Shown here: piece by piece, positions 4,631 through 39,432 of the stretch | How positions within the stretch are numbered: the stretch's first letter is position 1 | Layout of the letters: each line of letters opens with the position of its first letter | NCBI RefSeq assembly: GCF_008000815.1 | Contig: NZ_CP042806.1 | Span: 2,480,001 to 2,544,000, forward strand | DNA: 64,000 nt | Origin: Terriglobus albidus | Lineage (GTDB): Bacteria; Acidobacteriota; Terriglobia; Terriglobales; Acidobacteriaceae | Direction: 5' to 3' | Program-made: the position numbers and the translations under genes | The notes under the pieces: generated by a model | Databases searched by the model: none | Told to the model about the DNA's origin: nothing | Seen by the model: only the letters and a program-made list of their open reading frames with translations

Positions 4631-4675
4631 CCGCAAGAATCCACATACTCAGTCTCAGGGAGGGATTGAATCGTC

Positions 4676-22067: not shown

Positions 22068-23108
22068 ATGGCGATCCGTCTTCAAGACATCGCAGACGAT
22101 CTGAAATTGTCGAAGATGACGATCTCAAAGGTCCTTCGGGGCCAGACAGACGTCAGCGAAGAGACCAAGGCGCGTGTTCTAAAGCGCGTGCAGGAGCTCA
22201 ACTACCGGCCTAATATCTCGGCGCGCGGTCTGAGGACCGGCCAGACCTTTACTATTGGCCTGGCGCTTCCTTCGCTGCAGGACTCCACCTCGGCACAGAT
22301 AGTCGCTGGCGTGAACGAGGGGGTACGTCCGCACGGCTATAGTGTCGTGATTACGTCAGCGGATGGCGATGCGGAACGGGAAGAGCGCGAGGTCGAGCTG
22401 CATCTTTCCAGGCAGGTTGATGCACTGCTGCTCTGCCTGCGGGGTGATGCTTCCGATTTGCCCCAGGTGCTGGAAACGACAACCGTCCCCGTTGTATTGA
22501 TCGGATATCCGCCTGCGCGCTTCAACGGGATCAGCGTTGCGATCCGGGAGACTGAAGTTGGGCAGATCGCCGTACAGCACCTGCTGGAGCACCGATGTCG
22601 GCGGATCGCCTATCTGCGCGGACCGCGTACTCCCATTGGGGATATGCGGTTCACCGGCTTCCTGGAAGAGATGCGAAGTGCGGAACTTGCCGTGAAACAG
22701 GAGTGGATCCTGGAGCCCCAGCCGGGAGAGACCGGCTATCGCAGCGGTTATGACGCCATGCAACGACTCATGGCAGCAAAAACGATTCCGGATGGGGTAA
22801 TGACTTACAACGACCTGCAGGCGATCGGTGTAAGAGATGCTGCCTTGGAGGCCGGTCTGGAGGTTCCACGGCAGCTACGCATCCTGGGCTGCGGCAATAC
22901 GCTGCCTCTCTGCGAAACGGGACTTACTCTCTCAAGCATCGATCTTGCTTACCGCGAGCTTGGAAAACGGGCGGCCAAGATTGCCCTGCGCGGCATTGGG
23001 GAAAAGGGAAATGGAACGGCGCAGCGCTCGGTCTCTCTTTCTCCGCGCATCGTGCCAAGAAGCTCCACGGGCGAGTGGGTTCCGACGGAAAGGAAAAAGA
23101 CGAAATGA
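22068..23108 (+). CDS. LacI-family transcriptional regulator
   Basis: A 346-residue repressor. The N-terminal helix-turn-helix reads MAIRLQDIADDLKLSKMTIS, followed by the hinge region NYRPNISARGLRTG. The periplasmic-binding-protein-like effector domain runs from about residue 60 to the end (IGLALPSLQD, YNDLQAIGVRDAALEAGLEV). It overlaps the PfkB kinase by ATGA, so the regulator and kinase are made together, ahead of the operator at 24146-24171. The effector is likely a sugar or phospho-sugar handled by the operon. Confidence 0.93.
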   Translation: MAIRLQDIADDLKLSKMTISKVLRGQTDVSEETKARVLKRVQELNYRPNISARGLRTGQTFTIGLALPSLQDSTSAQIVAGVNEGVRPHGYSVVITSADGDAEREEREVELHLSRQVDALLLCLRGDASDLPQVLETTTVPVVLIGYPPARFNGISVAIRETEVGQIAVQHLLEHRCRRIAYLRGPRTPIGDMRFTGFLEEMRSAELAVKQEWILEPQPGETGYRSGYDAMQRLMAAKTIPDGVMTYNDLQAIGVRDAALEAGLEVPRQLRILGCGNTLPLCETGLTLSSIDLAYRELGKRAAKIALRGIGEKGNGTAQRSVSLSPRIVPRSSTGEWVPTERKKTK

Positions 23109-24100
23109 GCAATACCAGCAGAAAGACGCGCACTGGCGCTGCCAAGAAGTTCGACCTGGTGATCTTTGGCGAGTTCTTTTCCGACATGATCTTCTACCAG
23201 TTGCGTAACCAGCCGCGTTTTGGCGAAGAGGTAAAGACCGATAGCTTCCTCATTGCTCCAGGCGGCGGTTTAGCCCGCGCAGCAATTGCCGCCAGCAGGC
23301 TCGGCTCTGCCACCGGAATCGTGACTCGCGTTGGAACCGACGCTGCAAGTCTGCCCACATGGAATGCTCTGATGGCGGAAGGACTGGATGTCAGCGCCTG
23401 TGAGATTAACAAAGACTATGCCACGGCGTTGACGGTTTCGATGGCCTACCGTTCCAACCGGATGATGGTGACGCATGATCCGATCAATCAGCGGCTGGAA
23501 GATCTGCTCTCCAGTTCCGCGGTACAGCAGAAGCTGCATCGCGCGCGGCATGTACACTTCGCCTGCGCGCTACGTCGTCCGAAGCAATGGATCCCGGTGT
23601 TGAAGCAGCTGCGAGAAGCCGGCATTACAGTATCCGCCGACTTCGGCTGGAATCCCGATCTGTCGCCCTCGCAAATCCACTCCATCGTGCGTCACTGCGA
23701 ATTCATCTTTCCCAACGAGAACGAAGCAAAGGCTATTACTGGGGCAGGTGATGCGGTGCGGGCCTTGGAGAAGCTGCAGGAGTGGGTCCGGGTGCCTGTC
23801 ATCAAACTCGGCCGCCGCGGCGCCATGCTGATGGCCGATGGCAAGATCTATCGGGAACCGGCATTGCCTATCGCAGTGGTGGATGCAACCGGTGCTGGGG
23901 ATGCATTCGACGGTGGTTTCCTGCATGCCTTTCTTCACGGATCGGACTGGGCCGATTGCCTGCGGGCGGGAAATATCTGCGGAAGCCTGTCGTCGGCCTA
24001 TCCTGGCGGCTCGCACGGTTTGCCCGATCCGAAGGAGTTTCGCCACTATATGGCGCAGGGGAGCGGCCGTTCGGGGCGAGTAAGAGCGCGAAGCCGATAA
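23105..24100 (+). CDS. PfkB-family carbohydrate kinase (first of two)
   Basis: A 331-residue ribokinase-fold kinase that should transfer phosphate from ATP to a sugar hydroxyl. The N-terminal sugar-binding region contains GEFFSDMIFY and APGGGLARAAIAASRLGS. The C-terminal PfkB signature is VVDATGAGDAFDGGFLHA, in which the Asp of GAGDAF is the catalytic base and the GAG forms the anion hole. The start at 23105 is fixed by the ATGA overlap with the LacI gene. The second PfkB kinase at 31824 shares the family motifs but differs in the substrate region, so the two may act on different sugars or sequential steps. Confidence 0.9.
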   Translation: MSNTSRKTRTGAAKKFDLVIFGEFFSDMIFYQLRNQPRFGEEVKTDSFLIAPGGGLARAAIAASRLGSATGIVTRVGTDAASLPTWNALMAEGLDVSACEINKDYATALTVSMAYRSNRMMVTHDPINQRLEDLLSSSAVQQKLHRARHVHFACALRRPKQWIPVLKQLREAGITVSADFGWNPDLSPSQIHSIVRHCEFIFPNENEAKAITGAGDAVRALEKLQEWVRVPVIKLGRRGAMLMADGKIYREPALPIAVVDATGAGDAFDGGFLHAFLHGSDWADCLRAGNICGSLSSAYPGGSHGLPDPKEFRHYMAQGSGRSGRVRARSR

Positions 24101-24118
24101 AAAATCCATAAAAATTTG

Positions 24119-24148
24119 TTGACAGGGAAAGTTTGGCGGCTTTACGTT
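24119..24148 (+). promoter_or_regulatory. Sigma70-like promoter of the receptor operon
   Basis: TTGACA (24119-24124), an 18-bp spacer and TACGTT (24143-24148) fit a sigma70-type promoter. The -35 box is perfect; the -10 keeps only T1, A2 and T6 of the consensus. It lies between the PfkB stop and the TonB receptor start. Confidence 0.6.
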
Positions 24149-24171
24149 ACCGATAACGATACCGATATCGG
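24146..24171 (+). promoter_or_regulatory. Candidate LacI-family operator
   Basis: The site holds GTTACCGATAAC (24146-24157, inverted GTTA/TAAC) and the perfect 10-bp palindrome CCGATATCGG (24162-24171). TACCGATA is repeated at 24148 and 24160. It overlaps the -10 box and the presumed transcription start, the standard position for repression. The LacI regulator encoded two genes upstream is the natural candidate. Confidence 0.6.
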
Positions 24172-24246
24172 AACGCCGGGAGCCTGGTTCCGTCACCCTT
24201 GTTGCAGGGGCTGCTTCCGGTTAATCCGCTCCTTAGGAGGCAGTCG

Positions 24247-27200
24247 ATGAGCTCGTTTGTCACTGTGGTCCCCGCATTCTCCAACATCTTTTCCCGGACG
24301 GTCCTGATTCGCCTCCTTCTCCCTCTGTGTCTTCTTCTCGGAGCCGTCCACGCACATGCTCAGCTCGACAATGGATCGATTACCGGTACGGTGCGCGACG
24401 CCAGCGGCGCGGTGATCCCCAGCGCTTCCGTGACCATCCGTAACATAGCCACCGGCGTCACCACGACGCTGATAACCAACCAGGATGGCGTGTACCAGGC
24501 GCTCGCCCTCATTCCTGGAACATATGAAGTTGAGGTTGCGTCCCCCGGCTTCGGTAACTCGAAGCAGACCGGAATCGACGTACACGTCAAGACACGTGCG
24601 CAGGTCGATTTTGAGCTGAAGGCAGGCAGCCAGAACGATACGGTGGAGGTCAGCGCCGAGGTTCTTGGCCTGCAGACGCAGTCTGCTGATGTAGGTAACG
24701 TGGTCAGCACAACCCAGATCAACGATCTTCCGCTAAACGCCCGCCGTTATGCGGACCTGGCGCTGCTGGAACCAGGCATCTTCAAGAATCCGGCAGTGGC
24801 GAATAGTGCGCCAGACCGCTTCAGCTCCAATGGCAACCTGGAAACCCAGAACTACTTTGCCCTGGATGGCGTGGACAACAACTCCGGATCGACCAATCTG
24901 CAGGAGGGCTCGGTGCAGAACGTGCAGCCTCCGCCGGATGCGATCCAGGAGTTCCGTCTGCAGACACGTACCTACTCGGTGGAGTTCGGCACTTCTGCCG
25001 GAGCGGTGGTGAATGCCTCCACCAAGAGCGGTACCAACGCCTTCCACGGCAGTGCATGGGAATATGCTCGCAACAGCGTCTTCGACGCCAATAGCTGGGC
25101 CAACAATCATGCAACACCCAAGGTTGCGAAGGGTAATTTCAGCCAGAATCAGTTCGGTGGAACCATCGGTGGCCCGATTCGTCACGACCGCCTGTTCTTC
25201 TTCGGCGACTACCAAGGGCTGCGCAGCACGCAACAGACGACAGTTTTGTCGGTTGTTCCCTCGGCAGCAATGAAATCGGGTGATTTGAGTGAGGTTGCGG
25301 CTTACAATCCGACGGGCACCCTTCCGGGACAAATAGGTTGCATCGTTCTTAAAGTGGTCAATCCGAATTGCATTGATCCTGTAGCACGACGCGTTCTTGC
25401 GTTACTTCCCGATCCGAATAACATCCAGAGCCTGAATAACAGATGGGACGGTTCGAGCAACTACAGGTTTAGCTATCAGCTTCCCCAGCAGGTGAACTCG
25501 TTCGACACGCGCATTGATCAGAAGATCAGCGAGCGTCACTCGATCTTTGGCCGCTACAGTTTTTTGGACCAGCACCGCCAGGATCCGCCGTGGACGTCAA
25601 ACCCGACGGTCGGCAATGGCGGGTTCGCAACCGACTACAAGATCCGCAATCAGGGGCTTGCACTGGGATGGACGACAGTCTTCTCGTCCTCTGCTGTAAA
25701 TCAGGCGCGTTTTGGGTGGAGCCGCGACAGTGCGCATAGCGATCCCATTGGACTCACCTTGGGAGCATCGGCTGCAGGCGATGTCGGGCTCTCAGGCGTT
25801 CCAGTTTCTTCCTACGCCGCTGGCCTGCCGCCCATGAGTATCTCCGGCGGTTTTCGAAGGATTGGCGTGGATCTGTACCGTCCACAGTTTCAGGCAGCGC
25901 AGGTGTATCAGTTCCTGGATACCTTCACCAAGTTGAAGGGGAATCACAGCCTGATGTTTGGCTATGAGTATCACCGCAACACGTCGACCTTCCTCGATCT
26001 GCAGGCTCCGCAGGGCTATATGGGTTTCTCTGGTCTGTTTACCAATAGCAATGGATTTGGTTTTGCGGACTTCCTGTTGGGCAATGTGAATCAGACCATC
26101 TACAACAGCGCACTGGTCGTCCATAACTTCTTGTATGGCAACTCCTTTTTCGGGCAGGACACCTGGCGTGCAACGCGGAACCTGACCATTACGTATGGAA
26201 CCCGCTATGAGTTGTATTCGCCGATGCTGAACCGGACCAATCAGCTCTCGAACTTCAACACTGCTAATGGCGGATCACTGGCGGTGGCGAGTAGTGGCGG
26301 ATGGGCGCAGCGAGCCCTCATCAATCCGGACAAGAACAACTTTGCTCCGCGCGTCGGCTTCAGCTACCAGGCGACCGATAAGATCGTTCTGCGTGGCGGA
26401 TACGGTGTCTTCTACCAGTACATCAACCGTATCGGCTCTGAGTCGCAGTTAGCTCAAAACCAACCGTTCCTGAAGTTCGTGAACGACTCCCGCACAATCT
26501 CCGGAAGCTCGCCGGTCTTCTTCCTGCGGAACGGCTTCCCGGGAGCGACGTATGCCAATGCGACAACGCCGCTCTACATCCAGAAGACAAACTGGCAGGA
26601 CCCAAATCAGCGCACCAGCTATGTCCAACAGATGAGTTTTGGACCGCAGATTCAGTTGCCCAGCAATATGGTGCTGGAGACCATATGGGTAGGGAACTTC
26701 GGACACAAGATGAACCGCCTGCGGAACGCCAACCAGGGGCTGATTACGGGCTATACGGGCTCAACTCCGAACGTGGTCTTTCCCTATGCCAACCTGAACT
26801 CCGGCACTCTGCATGCCTTCCTCGAGCAGGCGACCAACGACGGCAACACCAATTATCACGGTCTTGTCGCCAGCCTGCGGCGGCCCATGAAGAATGGTCT
26901 GGCGTACCAGTTCAGCTATACCTGGGCGCATGCCTTCAGCGACTATGCGGATAACCTTACTGCCGGTTCCACACCGCAGAACGCTTATGACTATGCGCAT
27001 GAGTACTCGCAGTCGCCCTTCGACCAGCGTCATCGCTTTGTGGCGAACGCGCAGTGGAAGCTGCCGATCGGACGTAATGGCCTAGTGCTGAACAATGGCT
27101 CGACGGCATCCAAGCTGGTCGGTGGCTGGCAGCTCAATGCCATCGTTACGATGGAGGCGGGAAACCCCTTCAACGTGACAGCCACTGACTTTACGCAGAC

Positions 27201-27600
27201 CGGGTCAAATCATGCGATGTATGCTAACTGCCTTTCCGATGGTTTTGCAGGAGCCTCGCGTGACCGCATGGCGATTACAAATGCTGCTGTATTGACAACT
27301 AATGGACGCTATTTGAATCCGGCTGCTTTCGCGCAGCCGGCAAACGGGACCTTCGGCACTTGCCGTCCGCGGCCGTATGCGGGGCCTGGGCGTCATAACG
27401 AAGATTTGAGCCTCTTCAAGCAATTTGAATTTACAGATGCGCGCAAACTGGAGCTGCGTTTTGAGTTCTTCAACGCATTCAACCATCCAAACCTGGCCGC
27501 CCCAGGGACCAGCGTAGCGACCCCGAATACGTTTGGAAAAATCAGCAGTGTGGTGAACAACGCACGCCAGGTACAGATGGCCGCCAAGTTCTACTTCTGA
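24247..27600 (+). CDS. TonB-dependent receptor (Oar-like) of the deacetylase operon
   Basis: A 1,117-residue receptor. The signal peptide ends HAHAQ, followed by a carboxypeptidase-regulatory-like domain (about 40-125; GSITGTVRDASGAVIPSASV, LIPGTYEVEV). The plug has NYFALDGVDNNSG, and YSVEFGTSAGAVVNASTKSG precedes the large barrel. The C-terminus is QMAAKFYF. AGGAGG ends 6 nt before the ATG at 24247. It is the first gene after the operator and is followed by the deacetylase behind a strong intercistronic hairpin. This makes it the presumed outer-membrane entry gate for the operon's substrate. Confidence 0.93.
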   Translation: MSSFVTVVPAFSNIFSRTVLIRLLLPLCLLLGAVHAHAQLDNGSITGTVRDASGAVIPSASVTIRNIATGVTTTLITNQDGVYQALALIPGTYEVEVASPGFGNSKQTGIDVHVKTRAQVDFELKAGSQNDTVEVSAEVLGLQTQSADVGNVVSTTQINDLPLNARRYADLALLEPGIFKNPAVANSAPDRFSSNGNLETQNYFALDGVDNNSGSTNLQEGSVQNVQPPPDAIQEFRLQTRTYSVEFGTSAGAVVNASTKSGTNAFHGSAWEYARNSVFDANSWANNHATPKVAKGNFSQNQFGGTIGGPIRHDRLFFFGDYQGLRSTQQTTVLSVVPSAAMKSGDLSEVAAYNPTGTLPGQIGCIVLKVVNPNCIDPVARRVLALLPDPNNIQSLNNRWDGSSNYRFSYQLPQQVNSFDTRIDQKISERHSIFGRYSFLDQHRQDPPWTSNPTVGNGGFATDYKIRNQGLALGWTTVFSSSAVNQARFGWSRDSAHSDPIGLTLGASAAGDVGLSGVPVSSYAAGLPPMSISGGFRRIGVDLYRPQFQAAQVYQFLDTFTKLKGNHSLMFGYEYHRNTSTFLDLQAPQGYMGFSGLFTNSNGFGFADFLLGNVNQTIYNSALVVHNFLYGNSFFGQDTWRATRNLTITYGTRYELYSPMLNRTNQLSNFNTANGGSLAVASSGGWAQRALINPDKNNFAPRVGFSYQATDKIVLRGGYGVFYQYINRIGSESQLAQNQPFLKFVNDSRTISGSSPVFFLRNGFPGATYANATTPLYIQKTNWQDPNQRTSYVQQMSFGPQIQLPSNMVLETIWVGNFGHKMNRLRNANQGLITGYTGSTPNVVFPYANLNSGTLHAFLEQATNDGNTNYHGLVASLRRPMKNGLAYQFSYTWAHAFSDYADNLTAGSTPQNAYDYAHEYSQSPFDQRHRFVANAQWKLPIGRNGLVLNNGSTASKLVGGWQLNAIVTMEAGNPFNVTATDFTQTGSNHAMYANCLSDGFAGASRDRMAITNAAVLTTNGRYLNPAAFAQPANGTFGTCRPRPYAGPGRHNEDLSLFKQFEFTDARKLELRFEFFNAFNHPNLAAPGTSVATPNTFGKISSVVNNARQVQMAAKFYF

Positions 27601-27616
27601 TCTTGTGTGAATAGGA

Positions 27617-27640
27617 GCGGCCGGACCGCGGTCCGGCCGC
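27617..27640 (+). promoter_or_regulatory. Perfect 24-bp intercistronic palindrome
   Basis: Arms GCGGCCGGACC and GGTCCGGCCGC around GC give an 11-bp GC-only or nearly GC-only stem between the receptor stop and the deacetylase ribosome binding site (AAGGAG directly after). With no T-tract it is not a classical terminator. It probably stabilises the receptor message or reduces downstream expression. Confidence 0.6.
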
Positions 27641-27659
27641 AAGGAGATGAAAGGTCGTT

Positions 27660-30458
27660 ATGCCGTTTGTCAGAAAGTTCACTGTATTGGCGCTGACTCC
27701 CGTGTTGTTTGCGGGACCTATCTCCGCCGCACATGCCTTTCAGGCGCGCCCGCAGGTCGATGCACGGCCGATCGCAGCGGATGAGGGGGCCGCCGCGTTG
27801 TGGCAGTCGTTGAAGCGCCTGCAGACCCGCGCCAGCCTGATGATGATTGTGGCGCATCCGGACGACGAGGATGGAGCGACCCTGGCCTACCATAGCCGCG
27901 GTGTTGGCGCGCGCGTGGCCTTGCTCACACTGGACCGCGGGGAAGGCGGCGCAAACGTGATGTCCTCCGACTACTGGGACGCCCTCGGCCTGGTGCGTAC
28001 AGAAGAGCTGCTACAGGCTGGCCGCTATTACGGTCTGGATGCACAGTACTTCACGTCGATGACGGACTACGGCTTTTCGAAGTCTCTCGATGAAGCGTTG
28101 GGACAGTGGGGACACGACAAGGTTCTGGAACAGGCGGTGCGTGTTGTCCGCACCGTGCGCCCGCTCGTCGTTTGTTCCGTCTTTGTAGGCGGCCCAACCG
28201 ATGGACATGGACAGCACGCAACCGCCGGTCTGATGGCGCAGGAGGTCTTTAAGGCCGCCGGCGATCCAACGAAGTTCCCAGAGCAGATCAAGGAAGGCCT
28301 GTTGCCCTGGTCCCCGGTGAAGACATACGCCCGCGCTCCCTTCTTCCGCGTTTCAGAGAAGGGAATGTACGACTATGCCAACCACACCTGGGGTCCGGTT
28401 GGAGTCACGAATCACATCACAGGTAAGTGGGAAGAGGGGCGGCCCTCGGTCACGGTCAGCATTCCGGCCGGAAGCTTTGACCCGGTGATCGGCGAGACCT
28501 ACTCCCAGGTATCCCGTGAGGGCCTCGGATATCAGCGCTCGCAGAACGGCGGACAAAGCGTGCCCTTGCCAGGCTCGCAGATGAGCGACTATCACCGCTT
28601 CGGATCGGTACTCAACTCTCCCGCGAAGGAAGAGACCTTCTTCGACGGTATCGACGTTTCGCTAGCGGGGATTGCAGATCTCGCAGGATCGAAGCCTCCC
28701 GCTTTTCTGAAGCCAGGATTAGAGGAGATCGCATCGCAGATCGAACAGGCGATGAAGAGCTTCTCGGCACAGAAGCCTGCGACGGTGGCCTCTCCTCTGG
28801 CGAAGGGCAAGCTGAAGGTTGAGTCTCTGATCGCCGAGACGGAGAAGAGCGGTCTCTCCGCGGAGGCGAAGTACAACGTCCTGCATGAGCTGCGGGTCAA
28901 ACAACGCCAGTTCAATGATGCTCTGGTAGCGGCGCTGCAGTTGAAACTGAATGCCGACGTCATTCCAGCAGGGCAGGAGGACGGCATGATGGCCGCAATG
29001 CGCGGCGCAGCTTCTACCTTCCAGATGGCAACGCCCGGTCTTGCATTTCCCGTAAAGGTTCATCTCTACCAACCCACGGTCCCGTCGTTGACGGTCAAGA
29101 GCGTGAAGCTGGTGGGCACATCCGGCAAAGACTGGAGCGTCTCAGGTCCCACCTCTCCCGCAACATTGACCGCAGAAAAGGCAGCAGACCCGACCTTCAA
29201 GGTTAAGGTCCCAGACAATGAGCCATACACGCAGCCATACTTCACCCGTGCGGGTCTGCAGAATGCTGCATATGATGTCGCTTCCAGTGCGCCCAGGAAT
29301 ACACCGCTCACTCCTTACCCATTGCAGGCTGTGGCACAGGTGGAGTACGAAGGCGCCACTGTCGGTCTGGCAAGTGTCGTTCAGGTCGTCAGCAAAGTGA
29401 ACGGACCAGGTACGCTGCGGTATCCCATGCCGGTTGGCCCCGCGCTGTCGGTAGCGATGTCGCCGTCGGCTGGAGTTGTGCCGCTCGGCAGTAAGTTGAT
29501 CAACGTGAGCGTCCGCGTGCATAGCAACGTGAAGGGGGTCGCTTCACCATCCGTGAGTCTGTCGCTTCCCGAAGGCTGGACTGCCGAGCCTCGGTCCATT
29601 CTAGTGAAGTTCTCGCAGGAAGGCGAAGAGCAGACCGTCGCCTTCACCGTGACTCCCAAGGTTGCGGAAGGGAAGGAATACATCGTCACCGCCGTTGCGG
29701 AGCTTGATGGCAAGTCTTACTCCGAAGGCTATGTGACGATCGGTTACACCGGTCTACGGCCGTATTTCCTCTACTCGCAGGCGAAGTATGCCACCACTGG
29801 AACCGATGTGAAGATGGCTCCGGATGTCTCCGTGGCCTATGTCGAAGGCAGTGGCGATGACGTTCCGGCAGCGCTGGAGCAGATCGGTGTACACGTGTCG
29901 TATCTCTCGGCGCAGGATCTGGCAAATGCCGATCTGCAGAAGTACAGTGCAATCGTCCTCGGTGTTCGTGCGTATGCTGTGCGCCCTGATCTCATCGCGA
30001 ATAATGCACGTCTATTGCAGTATGTCGAGAAGGGCGGTACCGTCATCGTGCAGTACAACACGCCCGAGTTCGACCACAACTTTGGACCCTATCCTTACGT
30101 GATGAGTAATGATCCGGAAGAGGTGACAGACGAGAAGTCGGTTGTAAAGATCCTCGACCCAAAGAATCCCGTCTTCAACTGGCCGAATAAGATCACGGAA
30201 AAGGACTTCGACGGCTGGATCGAAGAGCGAGGATCAAAGTTCCTGCAGTCCTGGGACCCGAAGTACACCGCGCTTCTGGAGACGCACGATGCCGGCCAGC
30301 CGGAGCAGAAGGGCGGCCTGGTGTATGCGCGCTATGGCAAGGGCGTATACGTCTACAACGCATATGCTTTTTATCGCCAGCTCCCGTTAGGAGTTCCAGG
30401 GGCCTTCCGTTTGTTTGCCAATATGCTGAGTTTGCCGAAGAATCCGGAGATCAAGTAG
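27660..30458 (+). CDS. PIG-L/LmbE deacetylase with NEW3 and amidotransferase-like domains
   Basis: A 932-residue exported protein (signal peptide ending AHAFQ). The PIG-L domain (about residues 55-260) contains the zinc motif AHPDDEDGA and the distal histidine motif GPTDGHGQH. This family removes N-acetyl groups from GlcNAc-type substrates, including GlcNAc-inositol in the best-known members. A long middle region with helices (about 320-450) and two beta-sandwich stretches follows; PSVSLSLPEGWTAEP matches the NEW3 type. The last about 210 residues (GDDVPAALEQIGVHVSYLSA, YSAIVLGVRAY, VEKGGTVIVQYN) look like a ThuA/class-I-amidotransferase-like flavodoxin fold without an obvious Cys nucleophile. 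Location is probably periplasmic or surface. Substrate identity is inference. Confidence 0.82.
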   Translation: MPFVRKFTVLALTPVLFAGPISAAHAFQARPQVDARPIAADEGAAALWQSLKRLQTRASLMMIVAHPDDEDGATLAYHSRGVGARVALLTLDRGEGGANVMSSDYWDALGLVRTEELLQAGRYYGLDAQYFTSMTDYGFSKSLDEALGQWGHDKVLEQAVRVVRTVRPLVVCSVFVGGPTDGHGQHATAGLMAQEVFKAAGDPTKFPEQIKEGLLPWSPVKTYARAPFFRVSEKGMYDYANHTWGPVGVTNHITGKWEEGRPSVTVSIPAGSFDPVIGETYSQVSREGLGYQRSQNGGQSVPLPGSQMSDYHRFGSVLNSPAKEETFFDGIDVSLAGIADLAGSKPPAFLKPGLEEIASQIEQAMKSFSAQKPATVASPLAKGKLKVESLIAETEKSGLSAEAKYNVLHELRVKQRQFNDALVAALQLKLNADVIPAGQEDGMMAAMRGAASTFQMATPGLAFPVKVHLYQPTVPSLTVKSVKLVGTSGKDWSVSGPTSPATLTAEKAADPTFKVKVPDNEPYTQPYFTRAGLQNAAYDVASSAPRNTPLTPYPLQAVAQVEYEGATVGLASVVQVVSKVNGPGTLRYPMPVGPALSVAMSPSAGVVPLGSKLINVSVRVHSNVKGVASPSVSLSLPEGWTAEPRSILVKFSQEGEEQTVAFTVTPKVAEGKEYIVTAVAELDGKSYSEGYVTIGYTGLRPYFLYSQAKYATTGTDVKMAPDVSVAYVEGSGDDVPAALEQIGVHVSYLSAQDLANADLQKYSAIVLGVRAYAVRPDLIANNARLLQYVEKGGTVIVQYNTPEFDHNFGPYPYVMSNDPEEVTDEKSVVKILDPKNPVFNWPNKITEKDFDGWIEERGSKFLQSWDPKYTALLETHDAGQPEQKGGLVYARYGKGVYVYNAYAFYRQLPLGVPGAFRLFANMLSLPKNPEIK

Positions 30459-30474
30459 TTCGGGGACGATCTTC

Positions 30475-31827
30475 ATGGCGAACGCGGGACAACAACTCGG
30501 GCATCTGGAGCGTGGAATCGGTCTGTGGGGGGCGCTGTCGGCCAATGTGTTGAACATGGTCGGCGTAGGCCCCTTTCTTACTATTCCTCTGGCGCTGGCA
30601 GCGATGGGCGGTCCCCAGGCGATGCTCGGTTGGATCCTGGGAGCGCTGCTGGCGTTGTGCGATGGGATGATATGGGCCGAGCTTGGCTCCAGGATTCCCA
30701 ACTCCGGCGGTTCCTATCACTACCTGCTGATGGCTTTCGGTCCCAAGAGGCTCGGACGCCTGATGGCTTTTCTCTTCCTCTGGCAATCACTGCTGGTGGG
30801 GCCCATCTCCATCGCCTCAGGCGCAGTAGGCTTCGCGGACTACGCCAGCGTCTTCCATCCCATGTCGGCTGGTCAGTTGAAGCTGATAGCGATGGTGTTG
30901 TGTCTGTTCAATATGGCCGTGCTCTACCGCTCGATCCGCTCCATCGGAGTGCTGTCGGTTGTCGTCACAGTGATTGTGCTGGCGACCTGTTGTTGGATCA
31001 TCCTGAGCGGCATTACACACTTCCATCCGGCTACCGCCTTCAATTTTCCTCCCCACGCCTTCCATCTCTCCCATACATTCTGGCTTGGCCTCGGCTCCGC
31101 AACCCTGATCGCAACCTACGATTACGGCGGCTACAACAATGTCTGCCTGTTGGGCGGAGAGGTCAGAAATCCAACCAAAAATATTCCGCGCGTTGTGCTG
31201 CTCTCGATTGTGTTGGTGGCAGCCATGTACCTGGCGATGAATATCTCGATCCTTGGCACGTTGCCATGGCGTGAGGCGCAACATTCGAAGGTGATCGTCT
31301 CCGACTTTATGTGGGCGGTGCATGGAGCATGGGCCGCCAAAGCAGTCTCCATCCTGATCCTGATCGCAAGCTGGGGATCGGCCTTTGCCATCCTGCTCGG
31401 GTATTCGCGCATTCCCTATGCGGCCGCGGCAAATGGAGAGTTCCCCGCTGTCTTCGCCAGGGTGCATCCGAAGGATCACTTTCCAACCGTCTCGCTCATC
31501 TACATGGGGATTGCCTCGATGGCGATGTGTTTCTTCTCGCTGGCTGATCTGATTGCGGGACTGATCGTGATTCAGACTATGCTGCAGTTTCTCGGACAGT
31601 GTATTGCGGTTATGTTGCTGCGGCGGCAGTCACCACCTGCACCCGGCAGGTTCCGCATGCCGCTCTATCCGCTGCCCGCCCTGGTGGCATTGGCGGGATG
31701 GCTCTACATCGTTGGCACCAGCCAGCTAAAACACGTCGCCGTAGGCGCAGGCCTGATCGTCGCCGGTGCGGCGGTCTTCTTGTTTCAGGCAAACCGGGCG
31801 CAGGAGTGGCCATTTCAGCAGGCATGA
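30475..31827 (+). CDS. APC-superfamily permease
   Basis: A 450-residue inner-membrane transporter with about 12 hydrophobic segments. The N-terminal GIGLWGALSANVLNMVGVGP corresponds to the unwound TM1 substrate/proton site of amino acid-polyamine-organocation carriers. GSRIPNSGGSYHYLLMAFGP and EVRNPTKNIPRVV are further family motifs. Typical substrates are amino acids and amines, which is unusual beside sugar kinases and a glycosidase. In this operon it would suit an amino sugar or amine-bearing glycoside. It starts 16 bp after the deacetylase stop and overlaps the next kinase by ATGA. Confidence 0.85.
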   Translation: MANAGQQLGHLERGIGLWGALSANVLNMVGVGPFLTIPLALAAMGGPQAMLGWILGALLALCDGMIWAELGSRIPNSGGSYHYLLMAFGPKRLGRLMAFLFLWQSLLVGPISIASGAVGFADYASVFHPMSAGQLKLIAMVLCLFNMAVLYRSIRSIGVLSVVVTVIVLATCCWIILSGITHFHPATAFNFPPHAFHLSHTFWLGLGSATLIATYDYGGYNNVCLLGGEVRNPTKNIPRVVLLSIVLVAAMYLAMNISILGTLPWREAQHSKVIVSDFMWAVHGAWAAKAVSILILIASWGSAFAILLGYSRIPYAAAANGEFPAVFARVHPKDHFPTVSLIYMGIASMAMCFFSLADLIAGLIVIQTMLQFLGQCIAVMLLRRQSPPAPGRFRMPLYPLPALVALAGWLYIVGTSQLKHVAVGAGLIVAGAAVFLFQANRAQEWPFQQA

Positions 31828-32747
31828 AATACGACGTCACAGTCATCGGTGAGATTTATCTGGACCACGTCTTCAGCGGGTTTGCGGACTGGCCTGTCCC
31901 TGGGTCTGAGGTCTTTACCGACGAATACACCTGGGAGCTTGGCGGTGGCGCTATCACGACGGCCTGCGCGCTCTCACTGCTGGGAGCAAAGGTGCGTCTC
32001 GCAGGCGTTGTAGGCGAAGGTGACTATAAGGCCATCGCAGATCGCCTGGAAGAGTTCGGCGTCTCGGCTGACAGTCTAATCGTTGAAAAAGGGCGCAGCG
32101 GCGTCACCGTCAGTATCTCCACTGCACATGACCGCACCTTCTTTACCTATCGCGGTGTGAATGACCGTCTCGCAACGTATCTGGAACAGCATCTCGAGGT
32201 GATGGAGGAAGCTGCGCAGGCCAGGCACGTCCATCTCGCGCTTCCGTTAGAGGTGGGAGCAGGCGCCAGAATCGTGAAGGCGCTGAAAGGCCATGGAGCT
32301 ACTGTCTCCATCGATGTCGGACATCATGTCGAGTGGTTGCAGAACCAGGAGAATTGGACGCTGATGCGCATGATCGACTACGTCATGCCCAACGAGAAAG
32401 AGTCAATGATGCTTGCCGGAAGCCCTGAGGCGTATCTACGGCTCTGTCGTCAGCACGATGTGGAGCATGCGCTGGTGAAGCTTGGGCCTGCGGGTGCGAT
32501 GATGTTGTCGAACGGCAAGGAGTACTGGGCAGCGCCACCCCTGGTGGATCTAGTCGACACAACCGGCGCCGGTGATGCCTTCGATGCCGGCTTTATCCAT
32601 GCGCTGCTGGAAGGACTTTCGCCGCAGCAGTGCCTGCAGCATGGCTGCGTCTGCGGAGCTCTTTCGACTCGCGCCGCCGGCGCTCTGCGAGCGCTTCCTA
32701 CTCGTAATGAGGTAGAGGCCGCCCTTGAGGAGTTCTATGCCACGTAA
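31824..32747 (+). CDS. PfkB-family carbohydrate kinase (second of two)
   Basis: A 307-residue ribokinase-fold sugar kinase. Motifs are GEIYLDHVFSGF and the glycine-rich ELGGGAITTACALSLLGAKV near the N-terminus, YVMPNEKESMML in the middle, and LVDTTGAGDAFDAGFIHALL as the C-terminal signature with the catalytic Asp. The start is set by the ATGA overlap with the permease; the frame is open upstream inside that gene. It overlaps the GH4 start by 11 nt, so kinase and phospho-glycosidase are tightly coupled. This fits a route in which the kinase makes the phosphorylated substrate that GH4 needs. Confidence 0.9.
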   Translation: MKYDVTVIGEIYLDHVFSGFADWPVPGSEVFTDEYTWELGGGAITTACALSLLGAKVRLAGVVGEGDYKAIADRLEEFGVSADSLIVEKGRSGVTVSISTAHDRTFFTYRGVNDRLATYLEQHLEVMEEAAQARHVHLALPLEVGAGARIVKALKGHGATVSIDVGHHVEWLQNQENWTLMRMIDYVMPNEKESMMLAGSPEAYLRLCRQHDVEHALVKLGPAGAMMLSNGKEYWAAPPLVDLVDTTGAGDAFDAGFIHALLEGLSPQQCLQHGCVCGALSTRAAGALRALPTRNEVEAALEEFYAT

Positions 32748-34095
32748 GATTGCATTTCTCGGCGGTGGCGGTGTTCGCACGCCGCTGGTTGTTTTCGGCA
32801 TTAATGAGTCAGCACAAACGCTGAATGCGGAAGAGCTGATGTTGTACGACGTTGACCGGCATCGGGCGGAGATGATCGCTCGCCTGGGACGTGAGGTAGT
32901 CCGTCGCGAGTCTGGCGCGCTGAAGATTTCGGTTGCGAAGTCCCCGGAAGAAGCTGTAGATGGCGCGAGTTTCGTGCTGAACAGCGTCCGTGTTGGAGGC
33001 ATTGGGTCACGCGCCAATGACGAACGTGCGGCGATGCAGTGCGGTTATCCCGGACAGGAAACGACCGGCCCCGGTGGCGTGGCCATGGGACAGCGCACGA
33101 TTCCGGTCGCTATTGAACAGGCAAGGCTGGTGGAACGGCTTGCTCCCTCCGCATGGATCATCAACTTCACCAATCCAGCGGGTCTCATTACTCAGGCGAT
33201 TGCTCATCATTCTGATGCTCGTGTGATTGGCATCTGCGACACGCCAACGGAGCTGCTTCATCGCATCCAGACCGCACTGCAGGCTCCCACGAAAGATGTT
33301 GTCTGCGAGTATGTTGGTCTGAATCATCTGGGATGGGTACGCCGTGTCACGCTGCGCGGTGAAGATGTGACCTCACGCATCCTGCAGGACGATGCGATTC
33401 TCTCGCAGCTTTACTCTGCACCGCTGTTCGATCATGAACTGATCCGTGCCATCGGCCTGATTCCGACCGAATATCTTTTCTTCTATTACTCTCGTCGTCG
33501 TGCGCTTGAGAATCAGCGCAAACAGGGAGCTACCAGGGGAGAGCAGATTGCAGCAATGAACGAGCCGCTGATGCAGCGATTGATAGAGTTGTTGACGGCC
33601 GGTGAAGATGCGGCTGCACTGCAAGCCTATGTGGACTACCTGAACCTGCGCTCCGGTTCCTATATGAAGCTGGAAGGCGAAGGAAAGTCGGCGTTCGATG
33701 AGGCGACGCCGCAGGAAGATCCATTCCGTGCAGCGAGCGGTTATCATCGCATCGCGTTGCAGGTGATGAATGCACTCAGCAGTGAGACGCCGGAGAGTGT
33801 GATCGTCAATCTCCGCAACGGCAATACGATTCCCGAGATTGCTCCGGGAGACATTATCGAAGCCGCGACACAGATCAGCCGGACTCAGCTTGCTCCCATT
33901 CCCGTGGGCCCACTACCGGAAGCTGTGCGGGGCCTCGTGTTGGCAGTGAAGGCGTATGAACGCGCGGCGATTGCTGCTGCCGTCAGTGGCTCGGAGCGAG
34001 ATCTTCGCAAGGCGATGCTGCTCTATCCCAGCATCGGCGAATGGGAGCCATCAGAGGAACTGTTAAAGACAATGAAGTGGAGTAGTAAGGCTTAG
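32737..34095 (+). CDS. GH4 phospho-glycosidase (NAD+ and Mn2+ dependent)
   Basis: A 452-residue cytoplasmic enzyme of family GH4, which cleaves 6-phospho-glycosides by an NAD-mediated redox-elimination route. The Rossmann motif [13 protein letters not shown] is at the N-terminus. Metal ligands are predicted as Cys167 (GICDTP) and His197 (LNHLGW). NFTNPAG (143-149) is the conserved phospho-sugar region. The start at 32737 gives [10 protein letters not shown], typical for the family. GH4 enzymes normally act after PTS uptake, but no PTS gene is visible here and two PfkB kinases are. Alpha versus beta and glucose versus amino-sugar preference cannot be read. Confidence 0.88.
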
Positions 34096-34117
34096 CGAAT
34101 AACCCATGCGCTGGGTG

Positions 34118-34247
34118 CCCATGTCCGGGGTCCCCAACAAACTTGTTTGTTGGGGTGGTGTCCCTCGGGGACATGGGCATTCGAGCGAAGCTCGAACCGC
34201 TTTGTGATTTCGCAACAAAGCAGGTCCTTCGCTCCGCTCAGGATGAC
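34118..34247. repeat. Dispersed intergenic repeat with nested hairpins, copy 1
   Basis: An 11-bp stem (34132-34142 with 34145-34155) with a TT loop is enclosed by CCCATGTCC (34118-34126) and GGACATGGG (34169-34177). A TTCGAG/CTCGAA hairpin (34180-34196) follows. GCAGGTCCTTC...CTCAGGATGAC (34220-34247) is the reverse complement of the flanks of copy 2 near 47.2 kb. It lies between convergent genes and probably also ends their transcripts. Confidence 0.7.
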
Positions 34248-34269
34248 AGCAAAAAAGCAATCGAGCGAT

Positions 34270-35394
34270 CTATTTCTTTGCGCCCGATACAGCCACGCCA
34301 ACCAATGAGTCAGCGCATCCGTAGTAAAGGAACCATTTGTTCTTGAAGTACACCAGACCTTCAGCAAAGGTCGTTCCGGTAACGTATTGTCCCGTTTTCT
34401 CGAACGGCAACTCTGGCTTGAGAAAAGGCTCCGCTGTCCTCTCCAAAAGCTTGGAAGGCTCCGTCGCAGAGAACAACGCCTGCCCAACCGAGTAAGCGCC
34501 TGGATCAAGCCCAGGCGCCCCATCACTGGAACCATTCTTCCCGTTATAGAGAACCACGATTCCGCGTTCCGTCAGCACCGGCGGAGGACCGACCTCGGGG
34601 AACGCACTGTCGAAGAGTCGGGCCCGCTGCTTAAGCACCGTCACCGGAGAGCCGTCGGCATTCTCCACCGGTGTCCAGTGAACGAGATCAGGAGAGGTCG
34701 CCAGATGAACCTCCACCTCACCCCAGTACATCCAGTACTTGCCTTGAATCTTGGCTGCGATCAGTCGACCACTGTTGAGCCGCGTAACGATACCACCAGA
34801 CTTATAGCTGTGATATGCGCCTGAATCTTTGCCAGGGAACATGGGGCCGTACTTGGTCCAGTGGGCAAGATCCTTTGAGGTTGCAATGCCGATGCCGGTG
34901 CTCTTGCGATTCCACTGGGTATAGGTCAGCACATAGGTGCCGTCCTCGCCTTCAACCAATCGCGGGTCCTCAGTGCCTCCAGGCCACTCCCGATCTTTCT
35001 GCGCATCGCTTGCCGGATAGAAAACCGGTTCAGGCTCGCGGGTGAAGTGAACACCATCGTCACTGGAGGCCAACCCCAGCCGCGAGGTATGCATGCCGAT
35101 CTTCATCTCGCCGGAGTCATCCTCGGCGCGATACAGCACGTAAACCTTGCCGTTACGCACCACGGCGGATGGATTGAAGGTACTGGTGGCTTCCCAGTGG
35201 ACGGTCTGTTGGCTTAGAGGATCGGTGAAAGAAGATGCCGGTCGCGGCGAGAGAATCGGAGCGGAAACAGGCCGGTCGAATGGCCCGATCGTCCAGTTCT
35301 GAGCAGAACTCTTTTGAGCAAAACTCATGGCTGGCAGCAGAGCTACCAGCCATGAGAGGTGACGTATCGTCGATGTCTTAGACCGCAAAGCCAT
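34270..35394 (-). CDS. GH130 family mannoside phosphorylase or hydrolase, exported
   Basis: A 374-residue five-bladed propeller enzyme. The signal peptide is MALRSKTSTIRHLSWLVALL plus PAMSFA. The family signature GGTEDPRL is present, as are NPSAVVRNGKVYVLYRAEDD near the N-terminus and WFLYYGCADSLVGVA at the C-terminus. GH130 members are beta-mannoside phosphorylases or beta-1,2-mannosidases; an exported one is more likely a hydrolase, because phosphorolysis needs cytoplasmic phosphate handling. I placed the start at 35394, 31 bp after the oxygenase stop, rather than 35460, which would overlap it. It is probably cotranscribed with the inositol oxygenase. Confidence 0.8.
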   Translation of the reverse strand: MALRSKTSTIRHLSWLVALLPAMSFAQKSSAQNWTIGPFDRPVSAPILSPRPASSFTDPLSQQTVHWEATSTFNPSAVVRNGKVYVLYRAEDDSGEMKIGMHTSRLGLASSDDGVHFTREPEPVFYPASDAQKDREWPGGTEDPRLVEGEDGTYVLTYTQWNRKSTGIGIATSKDLAHWTKYGPMFPGKDSGAYHSYKSGGIVTRLNSGRLIAAKIQGKYWMYWGEVEVHLATSPDLVHWTPVENADGSPVTVLKQRARLFDSAFPEVGPPPVLTERGIVVLYNGKNGSSDGAPGLDPGAYSVGQALFSATEPSKLLERTAEPFLKPELPFEKTGQYVTGTTFAEGLVYFKNKWFLYYGCADSLVGVAVSGAKK

Positions 35395-35425
35395 AGGGAT
35401 CAACCCTACAAAGCCGCGAGCGAAA

Positions 35426-36283
35426 TTACCAGTCCAGCTTCTCCGGTAGGAACTCCGCAAACAGATCGTCGTAGTAGGGCTTCAGTTCCTTCATGTTCGG
35501 CTTGGTGTGGCCCTTGGAATAGAGGTCATACGGATTGAACTTCCGCACCCACTCCAGCATGGCCTCGTCCTTCTTGTTCATCAGATGCGTGTAAGCGCCA
35601 TGGCGGTGCCACGCATAGAACGAGTGGAAGCGCAGCATGTACAGCGCCTCATCCGGAAGGTAGGGCTTCATTACTTCGGCGATGTAGCCGTCGTGACCGA
35701 AGGACATGTGCACGTTTTCGAGACCGCAATTCGGCTCATAGATGCCGTACTTGGTCTGGTACTTGGCCACCAGGCGATCCGGGTTAGCGGCGAAGTACTC
35801 AGGGAAGACGATCTGATTGGACCACGCACAGCCTACCGGGAAGGTGTCGCCCACAACACCCCACTGCGGCTCGCCATAGAGGCAGAGGCACTTGCCCAGG
35901 TCATGGATAAAGCCCACCAGAGCCATCCAGCGAGGCTGCCCGTCCCGGCGCATGGCTTCGGAGGTCTGCAGCAGGTGCTCGATCTGGGTAAGGTCGGTAT
36001 CCGGGTCGCTGTCATCGACCAGAGTGTTGAGGAACTCGGCCGCTTCCCATACGGTCTTCTTGCCGCGCGTCAGGCCGAAGTACTCCTTCTCCTTGCCGAG
36101 AACGTAGTCAACGGTCTGGAACTCGTGGTTCAGGCGATAGAACTCGGCCACGCCGGGGTTGGCCTCGGCATCATACTGGCGGAATTCAGTCTCAGACTTT
36201 CCTTCCTTGTAACGGCCTTCCAGGAAGTCTTCCCACTGATCGAGATCGTGGAGGGGAGTAGCATTGGCGGGTGTGGCGGACAT
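35426..36283 (-). CDS. MIOX: myo-Inositol oxygenase, eukaryotic type
   Basis: A 285-residue diiron oxygenase converting myo-inositol and O2 to D-glucuronate. The metal ligands known from mouse MIOX are all in place by eye: His103 (IEHLLQ), His127 and Asp128 (FIHDLGK), His197 (SFGHDGY), His220 (LRFHSFYAWHRHGAY) and Asp253 (NPYDLY). Full family length is present (mouse and human about 285), beginning with the typical DQWEDFLEGRYKEGKSETEF region. It is the first gene after an 18-bp palindrome and promoter at 36343-36392. The LacI regulator lies immediately upstream on the same strand. The product would feed the glucarate genes 2 kb away if a uronate dehydrogenase exists elsewhere. Confidence 0.95.
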   Translation of the reverse strand: MSATPANATPLHDLDQWEDFLEGRYKEGKSETEFRQYDAEANPGVAEFYRLNHEFQTVDYVLGKEKEYFGLTRGKKTVWEAAEFLNTLVDDSDPDTDLTQIEHLLQTSEAMRRDGQPRWMALVGFIHDLGKCLCLYGEPQWGVVGDTFPVGCAWSNQIVFPEYFAANPDRLVAKYQTKYGIYEPNCGLENVHMSFGHDGYIAEVMKPYLPDEALYMLRFHSFYAWHRHGAYTHLMNKKDEAMLEWVRKFNPYDLYSKGHTKPNMKELKPYYDDLFAEFLPEKLDW

Positions 36284-36342: not shown

Positions 36343-36360
36343 TACGTAATCGATTACGTA
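36343..36360 (-). promoter_or_regulatory. 18-bp perfect palindromic operator
   Basis: TACGTAATCGATTACGTA is a perfect palindrome located directly downstream of the -10 box of the oxygenase promoter. The size and central CG are typical of LacI-family operators, and the LacI gene at 36433-37446 is adjacent. Confidence 0.75.
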
Positions 36361-36432: not shown

Positions 36433-37446
36433 TTACGCCGGCTTCCAGCTGCTCGCGCGAACGCGGAGATGCGGCTGGATCAGAATGCTGCGGGCTGGTT
36501 CTTCCGGATCGTCCAACAGGCGGATGACTTCTTCTCCCGCAGTCCGGCCGATCTGGTCTGTCGACTGGTCGACCGAGGTGAGCGGCACCCGTAAGTATTG
36601 GGCATAGCGGAAGTTACCGCAACCAACGATGGCGACGTCCTCCGGAACGCGGAGGCCGGCCTCCAGAACCGCCTCAATGGCGCCGATGGCTGTCAGATCG
36701 TTGTAGCAGAAGACGGCGTCTGGCCGGTGATTGAGTTTCAGCAACTGCTGCATGGCCTTCTGTCCGGCGGCGATACCCGTCTCTTCGAAACGCTCGTGCA
36801 TCAGCACATATTCCGGCGGCACTATGGCACGATGCCGCTGCAGGGTTTCTGAGTAACCGCGCATACGCTCATGGCCGGTACTCAGGTGCGAAGCACCGAT
36901 GTGTGCAATGCGCTTCCGTCCGGTCTCCAGAAGATGTTCGGTAGCAATCTCCCCAATCTTGAAATCGTCTGACCCGACATAATGAGCATCCAGGAGAGGG
37001 AAATTGCGGTCTACCAGAAGGATGGGTGTCTGCTTTTCGCCGACCTTGAAGATGTTTTGCAGTTTGCGCTGGCAGGATGAGATCAGCAGCATGTCGACCC
37101 CGCGGGTGAGCAGGGCACGAATCTCCCGCTGTTCGATCTCAGGATCATCCTCAGAGGAGGCCAGCAGCAGAGCCCGGTCATGTTCGCGCAGTACCGCACC
37201 CAGGCTCTTGGCTACTTCGCCGAAGTAAGGATGCAGCAGGTCCGGCACCACCAGGCCGACGTTAGCCGTGCGTCCGCTAATGAGGGCCCGGGCGATGAGG
37301 TTGGGTTTGTACTGCAGCTCCTCCATCCGCTTAAGCACGCGCTGGCGGGTCTTTTCACCGACGTCTTTACGGTTGCGGAGCACCTTGGAAACCGTAACGG
37401 TCGAAACTCCAAGGTCACGAGCAATGTCCTTCAGGCGGACAGCCAT
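36433..37446 (-). CDS. LacI-family regulator of the inositol oxygenase operon
   Basis: A 337-residue repressor with helix-turn-helix VRLKDIARDLGVSTVTVSKV, hinge YKPNLIARALISGRT and a periplasmic-binding-like effector domain (VGLVVPDLLHPYFGEVAKSL, YNDLTAIGAIEAVLEAGLRV). It is encoded just upstream of, and in the same direction as, the oxygenase, with the palindrome at 36343-36360 between them. That makes repression of MIOX and GH130 the simplest reading. The inducer could be inositol, glucuronate or a mannoside. Confidence 0.93.
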   Translation of the reverse strand: MAVRLKDIARDLGVSTVTVSKVLRNRKDVGEKTRQRVLKRMEELQYKPNLIARALISGRTANVGLVVPDLLHPYFGEVAKSLGAVLREHDRALLLASSEDDPEIEQREIRALLTRGVDMLLISSCQRKLQNIFKVGEKQTPILLVDRNFPLLDAHYVGSDDFKIGEIATEHLLETGRKRIAHIGASHLSTGHERMRGYSETLQRHRAIVPPEYVLMHERFEETGIAAGQKAMQQLLKLNHRPDAVFCYNDLTAIGAIEAVLEAGLRVPEDVAIVGCGNFRYAQYLRVPLTSVDQSTDQIGRTAGEEVIRLLDDPEEPARSILIQPHLRVRASSWKPA

Positions 37447-38517: not shown

Positions 38518-39432
38518 ATGCCCCAGATGCTTCCCGCAGACCTGGCAAAGACGATCGGCAGCGGCCTGCTGTCGTTTCCGGTAACCCACTTCACCGCAGC
38601 GAACACCTTTGATGAGAGCGCCTATCGCACTCATATCGGCTGGCTGCTCGAGCACAATCCCGCGGGTCTATTTGCCGCTGGTGGCACGGGCGAGTTCTTC
38701 TCGCTTACCCTTTCGGAGTTCTCCCATGTCGTACGTGCTGCCGTAGAAGAGACAGCCGGACGTGTTCCTGTACTCGCCGGTTGTGGATACGGCACGGCCA
38801 TGGCGATTGAGTTCGCAAAAGCCGCCGAGGCTGCCGGAGCCGACGGCATTCTTCTGCTGCCCCCATATCTGGTCGGCGCAGAGCAGGCTGGTTTGATCGC
38901 CCATGCCGAAGCGGTCTGCGGCGCCACCAAGCTGGGCGTCATCCTCTACAACCGCGACAACTTCGTTATTAACGAGGACAGCCTCGAAGCGCTCTGCAAT
39001 CGTTGCCCGAATCTGATCGGTTTCAAGGATGGCTACGGCGATATCGAACTGATGACCCGCATCTTTACCCGCATGGGCGACCGGCTGACCTACGTAGGCG
39101 GTCTGCCGACGGCGGAGACCTTCGCGCTGCCGTACCTGGAAATGGGCGTCACCACGTACTCCTCGGCGATCTTCAACTTCCTGCCTAACTTCGCGAATGA
39201 GTTCTATGCCGCGGTACGTCGCCGCGACCACGAGACCATCTACAAGGGCTTGAAAGAATTTGTATTGCCCTACAGCACCATTCGCAATCGCCGCAAAGGC
39301 TATGCGGTTTCGATTGTGAAGGCCGGCCTGAAAGTTGTGGGACGTCCCGCCGGTTCGGTACGCACTCCATTGCTGGATCTCACGCCGCATGAACTGGAAG
39401 AGCTGAAGGCACTCATCGGCAACCGCTCGTAG
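38518..39432 (+). CDS. kdgD: 5-Dehydro-4-deoxyglucarate dehydratase (decarboxylating)
   Basis: A 304-residue class I aldolase-fold enzyme of the DHDPS/NAL superfamily that dehydrates and decarboxylates 5-keto-4-deoxyglucarate to 2-oxoglutarate semialdehyde. The Schiff-base Lys170 is in [11 protein letters not shown], the Tyr144 of ILYNRD is the proton-relay position, and [10 protein letters not shown] (55-64) is the family substrate loop. Length matches known KdgD (about 300). It is the first gene of the operon. Assignment over other superfamily members rests on the FKDGYGD context and on the neighbouring glucarate dehydratase and semialdehyde dehydrogenase. Confidence 0.93.

Follow-up and report, generated by a model that had tools for sequence, protein, structure and literature searches.

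A run of seven genes at positions 22068-34095 of a 64,000-nucleotide stretch of Terriglobus albidus DNA (NZ_CP042806.1, 2,480,001 to 2,544,000; hereafter the window, part of a complete 6.4-Mb genome) is predicted to be a catabolic operon for an α-linked amino-sugar-inositol glycoside, most simply N-acylated α-glucosaminyl-inositol (GlcN-Ins). We give this reading a probability of roughly 0.6. It draws on the gene set, its conservation, its linkage to inositol genes, an operator common to one clade, and the group and motif of the GH4 enzyme, and the substrate is inferred from the neighbouring genes. In the proposed pathway, an outer-membrane receptor would bring the N-acylated glycoside into the periplasm, an exported PIG-L protein would strip the N-acyl group, an APC permease would take in the free amine, and PfkB kinase 2 would phosphorylate C6 of the sugar in place of a phosphotransferase system (PTS). 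The GH4 enzyme, with NAD and a metal ion, would then yield glucosamine-6-phosphate and myo-inositol, the latter being consumed by myo-inositol oxygenase (MIOX) and the glucarate genes here and by the iol pathway in relatives. An earlier note on this DNA had proposed a PTS-independent route for amino-sugar glycosides; its interpretation was partly supported and is narrowed here to an α-amino-sugar inositol glycoside as the most likely substrate.

The seven open reading frames (ORFs) all lie on the + strand with overlaps or short gaps, and Pfam confirmed the families that the earlier note had assigned to them. They encode a LacI-type regulator (22068..23108; LacI, Peripla_BP_3), PfkB kinase 1 (23105..24100; 148 bits), whose ATG overlaps the LacI stop, a TonB-dependent-type outer-membrane receptor (24247..27600; OMP_b-brl_4, 781 bits, and CarboxypepD_reg) with a carboxypeptidase-regulatory-like N domain, a PIG-L/LmbE-type de-N-acylase whose C-terminal part is long (27660..30458; PIG-L domain), an APC-family permease (30475..31827; AA_permease_2, 145 bits), PfkB kinase 2 (31824..32747; 134 bits), which shares a 4-nt ATGA overlap with the APC gene, and the GH4 enzyme (32737..34095; both GH4 Pfam domains, 137 and 130 bits). 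The overlap between kinase 2 and GH4 is exactly 11 nt (32737-32747), the length given earlier. According to locus maps, a second kinase such as kinase 1 is present in some GH4 loci, not all. The Pfam scan found no PTS component among the seven genes, unlike in a chb-type operon, and this context supports a PTS-independent route. The gene order of the proposed seven-gene unit stood, but LacI-kinase 1 may be transcribed separately from receptor-to-GH4, because TTGACA and a LacI-type operator sit in the gap before the receptor.

The gene set, which the earlier note had proposed to seek across Acidobacteriota, does co-occur elsewhere. GH4 was detected in 19 of 200 family genomes (E 1e-30 or better). 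Across the phylum, a GH4 profile (E 1e-60 or better) picked up 21 of 396 genomes, 14 of these 21 lying outside the family. Stretches of up to 21 kb were fetched around the GH4 matches and five named loci, giving 39 distinct loci including the window (cited here by L numbers); L162 (a duplicate of L022 with identical PIG-L) and L021 (of L086) had been dropped before counting. Since a codon-score gene caller missed some kinases, the final partner-gene counts were made by tblastn (E 1e-20) over the fetched stretches. PfkB kinases were detected in 37 of the 39 loci, APC permeases in 35, PIG-L in 31 and the receptor in 29. The kinase count is an upper figure for the kinase sought, as the query also matches other PfkB proteins. 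The four loci without an APC match were all on contigs no longer than 25 kb, as were four of the eight without PIG-L; the other four were L091, L147, L151 and L155, with L147 ending at a contig end. Because GH4 and its partner genes are conserved across loci, chance is excluded as the source of the gene set. The closest GH4 sequences in the genome collection came from a metagenome-assembled genome (96%) and, as the best named genome, Terriglobus albidus (95%). In L091, a PNGase A-like amidase gene (4014-5879) directly adjoins GH4 on the same strand.

The genes next to GH4 appear to single out inositol as the aglycon. In 14 of the 39 loci, GH4 has a gene of one of two unrelated myo-inositol routes (MIOX or IolD/IolB) at a distance of 0.1-12 kb. 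MIOX lay 91-1572 bp away in seven, namely the window, L086, L087 and L024 (one lineage), L099 and L102 (genus g54) and L147 (family f71), the last with the order APC-kinase-MIOX-GH4 on one strand. Seven more loci (L097, L098, L100, L151, L152, L155 and L156) encoded IolD (at least 62%) or IolB (at least 50%), both relative to L097 queries, within 12 kb. NCBIfam cut-offs were passed by IolD and IolB of L097 and by IolD and IolG of L100, and IolE of L097 was below its cut-off (201 vs 290). The genes of L100 were arranged as APC, LacI (other strand), transaldolase-like, IolG, IolD, IolE, IolB, kinase and GH4. IolG-like matches at 28% were left out of the inositol counts. Methylmalonate-semialdehyde dehydrogenase (MMSDH; IolA family), which serves valine breakdown too, was encoded directly after GH4 in L148-L150 (597 bits in L149, cut-off 449; the other two 92% and 78% identical) and had no match in the other 36 loci. 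In the window, MIOX (35426..36283, - strand; Pfam 353 bits, cut-off 25) is followed by genes for 5-dehydro-4-deoxyglucarate dehydratase KdgD (38518..39432, +; TIGR03249, 437 bits, above cut-off), glucarate dehydratase (40798..42135, +; TIGR03247, 817 bits, just below the cut-off of 829) and galactarate dehydratase (43728..45278, +; TIGR03248, 912 bits, above cut-off), all enzymes of the known glucuronate-through-glucarate route; in L161 the same genes come directly after GH4. Among whole genomes, MIOX or IolD above cut-off was found in 17 of the 19 with GH4 and in 66 of the 181 others (Fisher p=8e-6, uncorrected for kinship).

Putative operators were identified in front of both gene groups. 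The element before the receptor-to-GH4 unit (24119..24170) comprises TTGACA (24119-24124), a palindrome-like CGTTACCGATAACG (24145-24158) and trailing half-sites. CGTTACCGATAACG precedes the receptor with 0-1 mismatch in nine loci of the window's clade, window included; in L092, a one-mismatch copy situated 267 bp ahead of the receptor ORF is outside this count. The receptor-to-GH4 unit probably has its own predicted LacI-controlled promoter. A perfect 18-bp palindrome, TACGTAATCGATTACGTA (36343..36360), lies before MIOX. Even with up to 3 mismatches allowed it is the window's only match (0.01 expected), and it is conserved in four Terriglobus-lineage loci, window included. In a second clade, the palindrome CCGAAACGTTTCGG, taken from the MIOX promoters of L099 and L102, had 19 sites with up to 2 mismatches in 11 loci (159,414 bp), two of which were the seed sites before MIOX. 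A Markov model gave a mean of 1.1 sites and at most 6 over 20 runs, and 872,899 bp of other loci contained three matches. The sites lay before MIOX, receptor/PIG-L pairs, APC/creatininase pairs and transaldolase genes, among the last the transaldolase-iol-kinase-GH4 series in L100; in L098 a site lay some 30 bp ahead of kinase-GH4. One was within PIG-L, and three fell within receptor or creatininase ORFs, in their 5' portions as called, on the upstream side of a divergent gene. Because this operator is common to MIOX and to the PIG-L/receptor, APC and kinase-GH4 genes, it is likely that the inositol genes and the PIG-L/APC/GH4 genes of the second clade belong to one regulon. A creatininase-family enzyme is encoded divergently from APC in L096, L100, L102, L103 and L105, with a CCGAAACGTTTCGG-type operator between the two in L100, L102 and L105; the L096 protein, which was tested, is far from the creatininase, IolN and MftE models.

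The GH4 protein is the sole GH4 match in the genome and appears to belong to the 6-phospho-glycosidase group, scoring 309-222 bits to phospho-GH4 structures and 114-99 bits to non-phospho GH4. Residues C166, D167, H196 and N145 were invariant in 19 aligned sequences. Its motif reads CDTP ... NHLGW, with CDTP present in 19 of 19 aligned sequences and in two sphingomonad relatives. The pattern CD.P and NH.GW is common to the window enzyme and the alignments of 6vc6 (a 6-phospho-α-glucosidase with CDQP and NHYGW) and 6wbt, and the β enzyme BglT has CNVP and NHLSF. The motif is therefore classed as α-type, and the anomer is a prediction from it. The GH4 6-phospho-α-glucosidases (6vc6, 6wbt, 6dux and GlvA 1u8x) have the same fold and phospho-glycosidase group; the window enzyme differs from them in its setting of APC and PfkB genes.

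Outside Acidobacteriota, GH4 at 58% was found on plasmids of Novosphingobium capsulatum and Sphingomonas parapaucimobilis. Both displayed APC (58-59%), PfkB (43-46%) and GH4 in the order of the window, head to tail on one strand, with kinase and GH4 overlapping, which agrees with the pairing of a kinase with GH4 proposed earlier. Their neighbours included a receptor, GH92 and annotated iolE, iolD, iolC and iolG, with iolB also in S. parapaucimobilis. Because PIG-L had no match in either 37-kb sphingomonad stretch, the conserved core would be APC-kinase-GH4 plus inositol catabolism, and PIG-L looks like an acidobacterial front end added to it. The de-N-acylase of the earlier proposal fits most acidobacterial loci, but not these two. 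A substrate already bearing a free amine, such as a remnant of a glycosylphosphatidylinositol (GPI) anchor, would not need PIG-L. A mannosidase link hinting at GPI glycans was not consistent across loci: GH92 occurs in both sphingomonad loci and, in the window, roughly 17 kb upstream of LacI, and no mannosidase was found in nine large acidobacterial ORFs scanned near GH4; apart from one ORF without a match, these encoded GH95, a receptor, PNGase A, a protein kinase, a radical SAM protein and others.

It could also be argued that the PfkB kinases are IolC-like and do not feed GH4, the whole being an inositol operon with an accessory glycosidase. IolC is among the better matches of kinases 1 and 2, and in L100 the kinase comes right after IolB. 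However, the scores (100 and 89 bits, and at most 113 in three relatives tested) are far below the IolC cut-off of 300, the MIOX route is not known to yield an IolC substrate, and the sphingomonad plasmids carry a separate annotated iolC beside APC-PfkB-GH4. On account of the cut-offs and this separate iolC, the kinases were rejected as IolC, and we consider such an operon very unlikely. Kinase feeding of a GH4 without a PTS would not be unique to the loci described here. Loci on S. meliloti pSymB and on a plasmid of Streptomyces sp. NBC_00316 have, like the window, GH4 near a carbohydrate kinase with no PTS listed. They differ in GH4 identity (35-38%), in import by an ATP-binding cassette transporter, and in having no APC or inositol genes listed in the stretch.

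Several observations weigh against the amino-sugar-inositol reading. Neither MIOX, IolD, IolB nor MMSDH was present in the fetched stretch of 22 of the 39 loci, and sugar-use genes tend to cluster, as would fit chance or general clustering with MIOX/glucarate genes unrelated to GH4. That explanation is highly improbable: the linkage spans ten genus- or family-level lineages and two unrelated inositol routes, a binomial sketch ignoring kinship gives P ~4e-15 for 8 of 17 genomes with linkage within 10 kb, and the common CCGAAACGTTTCGG operator of the second clade speaks against it. Within the clade of the window, the operator before MIOX resembles the one before the receptor without being identical to it (2 mismatches), and one common operator for both is not claimed there. 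The genome's own NagB match is below cut-off (140 vs 237 bits).

Other adverse points concern PIG-L. Membership in the PIG-L/LmbE superfamily is supported by the PIG-L domain, the AHPDD and HxxH zinc motif and the fold; AHPDDE and HGxH were invariant in 19 aligned relatives, and the N terminus is signal-peptide-like by eye. MshB and Mca are PIG-L-family mycothiol enzymes acting on GlcNAc-Ins and mycothiol conjugates. The window protein resembles them in its domain, with Mca as the best NCBIfam match, but is far below both cut-offs (MshB 34 vs 224 bits, Mca 43 vs 277), has 932 aa with a large C-terminal part and a signal-like N terminus, and is encoded in a catabolic operon. Its modelled fold is tied between MshB and diacetylchitobiose deacetylase. 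This tie would suit a non-inositol amino-sugar glycoside, for example chitobiose, acted on by the same enzymes with another sugar as aglycon, as would the whole-length GH4 sequence, which is slightly nearer 6-phospho-β-glucosidases (5c3m, 1s6y) than α-glucosidases. A precedent is the chb operon, which uses PTS import and phosphorylation, a YdjC-type deacetylase and a β-linked substrate, and whose ChbF is a GH4 enzyme. In E. coli and Klebsiella, ChbG-deacetylated chitobiose-6-P is the substrate of ChbF (PMC9402603), so that an amino-sugar disaccharide is de-N-acetylated and its 6-phosphate form then cleaved, much as in the route proposed here. Unlike chb, the window operon has APC, a PfkB kinase, PIG-L, an α-type GH4 motif and inositol genes. 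Since the motif resembles 6vc6 and not BglT, β-linked chitobiose is disfavoured; a chitobiose-type route would also leave MIOX, the Iol genes and the common operator unexplained. We therefore regard a non-inositol aglycon as quite unlikely. Among the substrates listed in the earlier note, GlcNAc-inositol is favoured by the inositol neighbours and chitobiose is not supported.

The remaining points against an amino-sugar-inositol substrate bear on whether PIG-L and APC belong to the route. Phylogenetic analysis placed the GH4-linked PIG-Ls in several groups, not one (the duplicate L162 was kept, wrongly labelled 'other', and pieces of up to 600 aa from L101, L102, L105 and L122 were excluded). 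PIG-L/APC pairs also occur without GH4, six of them chosen for nearness to MIOX (L106-L111), plus others, and PIG-L/APC is therefore not specific to this substrate; three such pairs adjoin ROK, receptor and argininosuccinate-lyase-like genes. What is known of APC carriers mostly concerns amino acids, and the GH4 6-phospho group is known for neutral 6-phospho-sugars. Together with the sphingomonad stretches lacking a PIG-L match, these facts would be compatible with a neutral α-glycoside of inositol as the GH4 substrate, with PIG-L/APC serving separately, e.g., in amino-acid or amine uptake. Against this stand the retention of APC head to tail with kinase and GH4 in another phylum, the fact that APC is no usual carrier of neutral sugars, and the presence of PIG-L in 31 of 39 loci; a neutral substrate seems unlikely to us.

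For the preferred amino-sugar-inositol glycoside, mycothiol, GlcNAc-inositol and GPI remnants are candidate sources. One doubtful but specific version is a pathway dedicated to eating mycothiol, the actinobacterial thiol, in which an exported Mca-like PIG-L would free acetyl-cysteine, an M20 hydrolase would deacetylate it, APC would import GlcN-Ins, kinase and GH4 would split it, and the inositol would be consumed. In this version, glucosaminyl-malate of bacillithiol would be handled likewise by a sister locus that carries an argininosuccinate-lyase-like gene. M20 was called in four of the 39 GH4 loci (L092, L095, L096 and L102). The sister locus, L113 (G000:C1:2999000-3018900), is the second PIG-L/APC locus of the same genome and encodes PIG-L, ROK, receptor, argininosuccinate-lyase-like, APC and GH63-like proteins; L122 and L124 are of the same sort. 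That the lyase could split glucosaminyl-malate (bacillithiol core) to fumarate is speculation.

The fructoselysine operon offers another comparison, as FrlA is an APC importer of an amine-bearing sugar followed by the PfkB kinase FrlD. In the window its deglycase is replaced by GH4, and the window proteins are far below the frl cut-offs (FrlA 96 vs 800 bits; FrlD 72 and 67 vs 247). No SIS-type (deglycase) gene was found among the seven genes by Pfam, and a Frl-type Amadori route was rejected.

α-Glucosaminyl-inositol is the core of mycothiol and GPI anchors, so its release in soil is presumably constant. No breakdown route for it was described in the titles or abstracts among the matches listed from the open-licence literature. 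If the proposal is true, a kinase and an amino-acid-type carrier would supply a GH4 in place of a PTS, and functions would be given to APC, PfkB and exported PIG-L proteins now named by family alone. The gene set yields specific, assayable predictions.

Downstream of GH4, a GH130, β-1,2-mannosidase-like protein is encoded on the - strand (34270..35460; NF058598 463 bits, below the cut-off of 550), and it is uncertain whether it belongs to the system. The GH4 and GH130 genes are convergent, and a long GC-rich inverted repeat separating them (34100-34270) is by eye a possible two-way terminator. Adjoining MIOX is a second LacI-type regulator (36433..37446, -; Pfam and sequence comparison) with relatives inside GH4 loci L094 (59%) and L092 (65%, partial). 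Between the glucarate genes lie an MFS transporter of sugar-acid type (39455..40798, +; TIGR00893, 418 bits, above cut-off) and an aldehyde dehydrogenase (42154..43734, +; NCBIfam matches far below cut-offs), which plausibly acts on α-ketoglutarate semialdehyde.

Some loci without GH4 displayed related arrangements. In L106-L110 and L122, MIOX is near a sugar-transport-type (RhaT/EamA-like; family tested in L106) membrane protein and a PIG-L/APC pair, and in L122, from an acidobacterial genome, a subclass B3 metallo-beta-lactamase gene (3711-4619; 332 bits, cut-off 240) lies between MIOX and a LacI gene. In L121 (G126:C264, 7338-18950), an iol cluster comes together with genes for an APC permease, a DegT-type aminotransferase and a dehydrogenase of weak similarity to IolM, and neither PIG-L nor GH4 was called in that stretch. 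This suggests amino-inositol use, and that some APC carriers of these loci take amino-cyclitols. Far upstream in the window, downstream of GH92 and GH27 genes, a single ORF of 2647 aa (6069-14012) contains many repeated segments.

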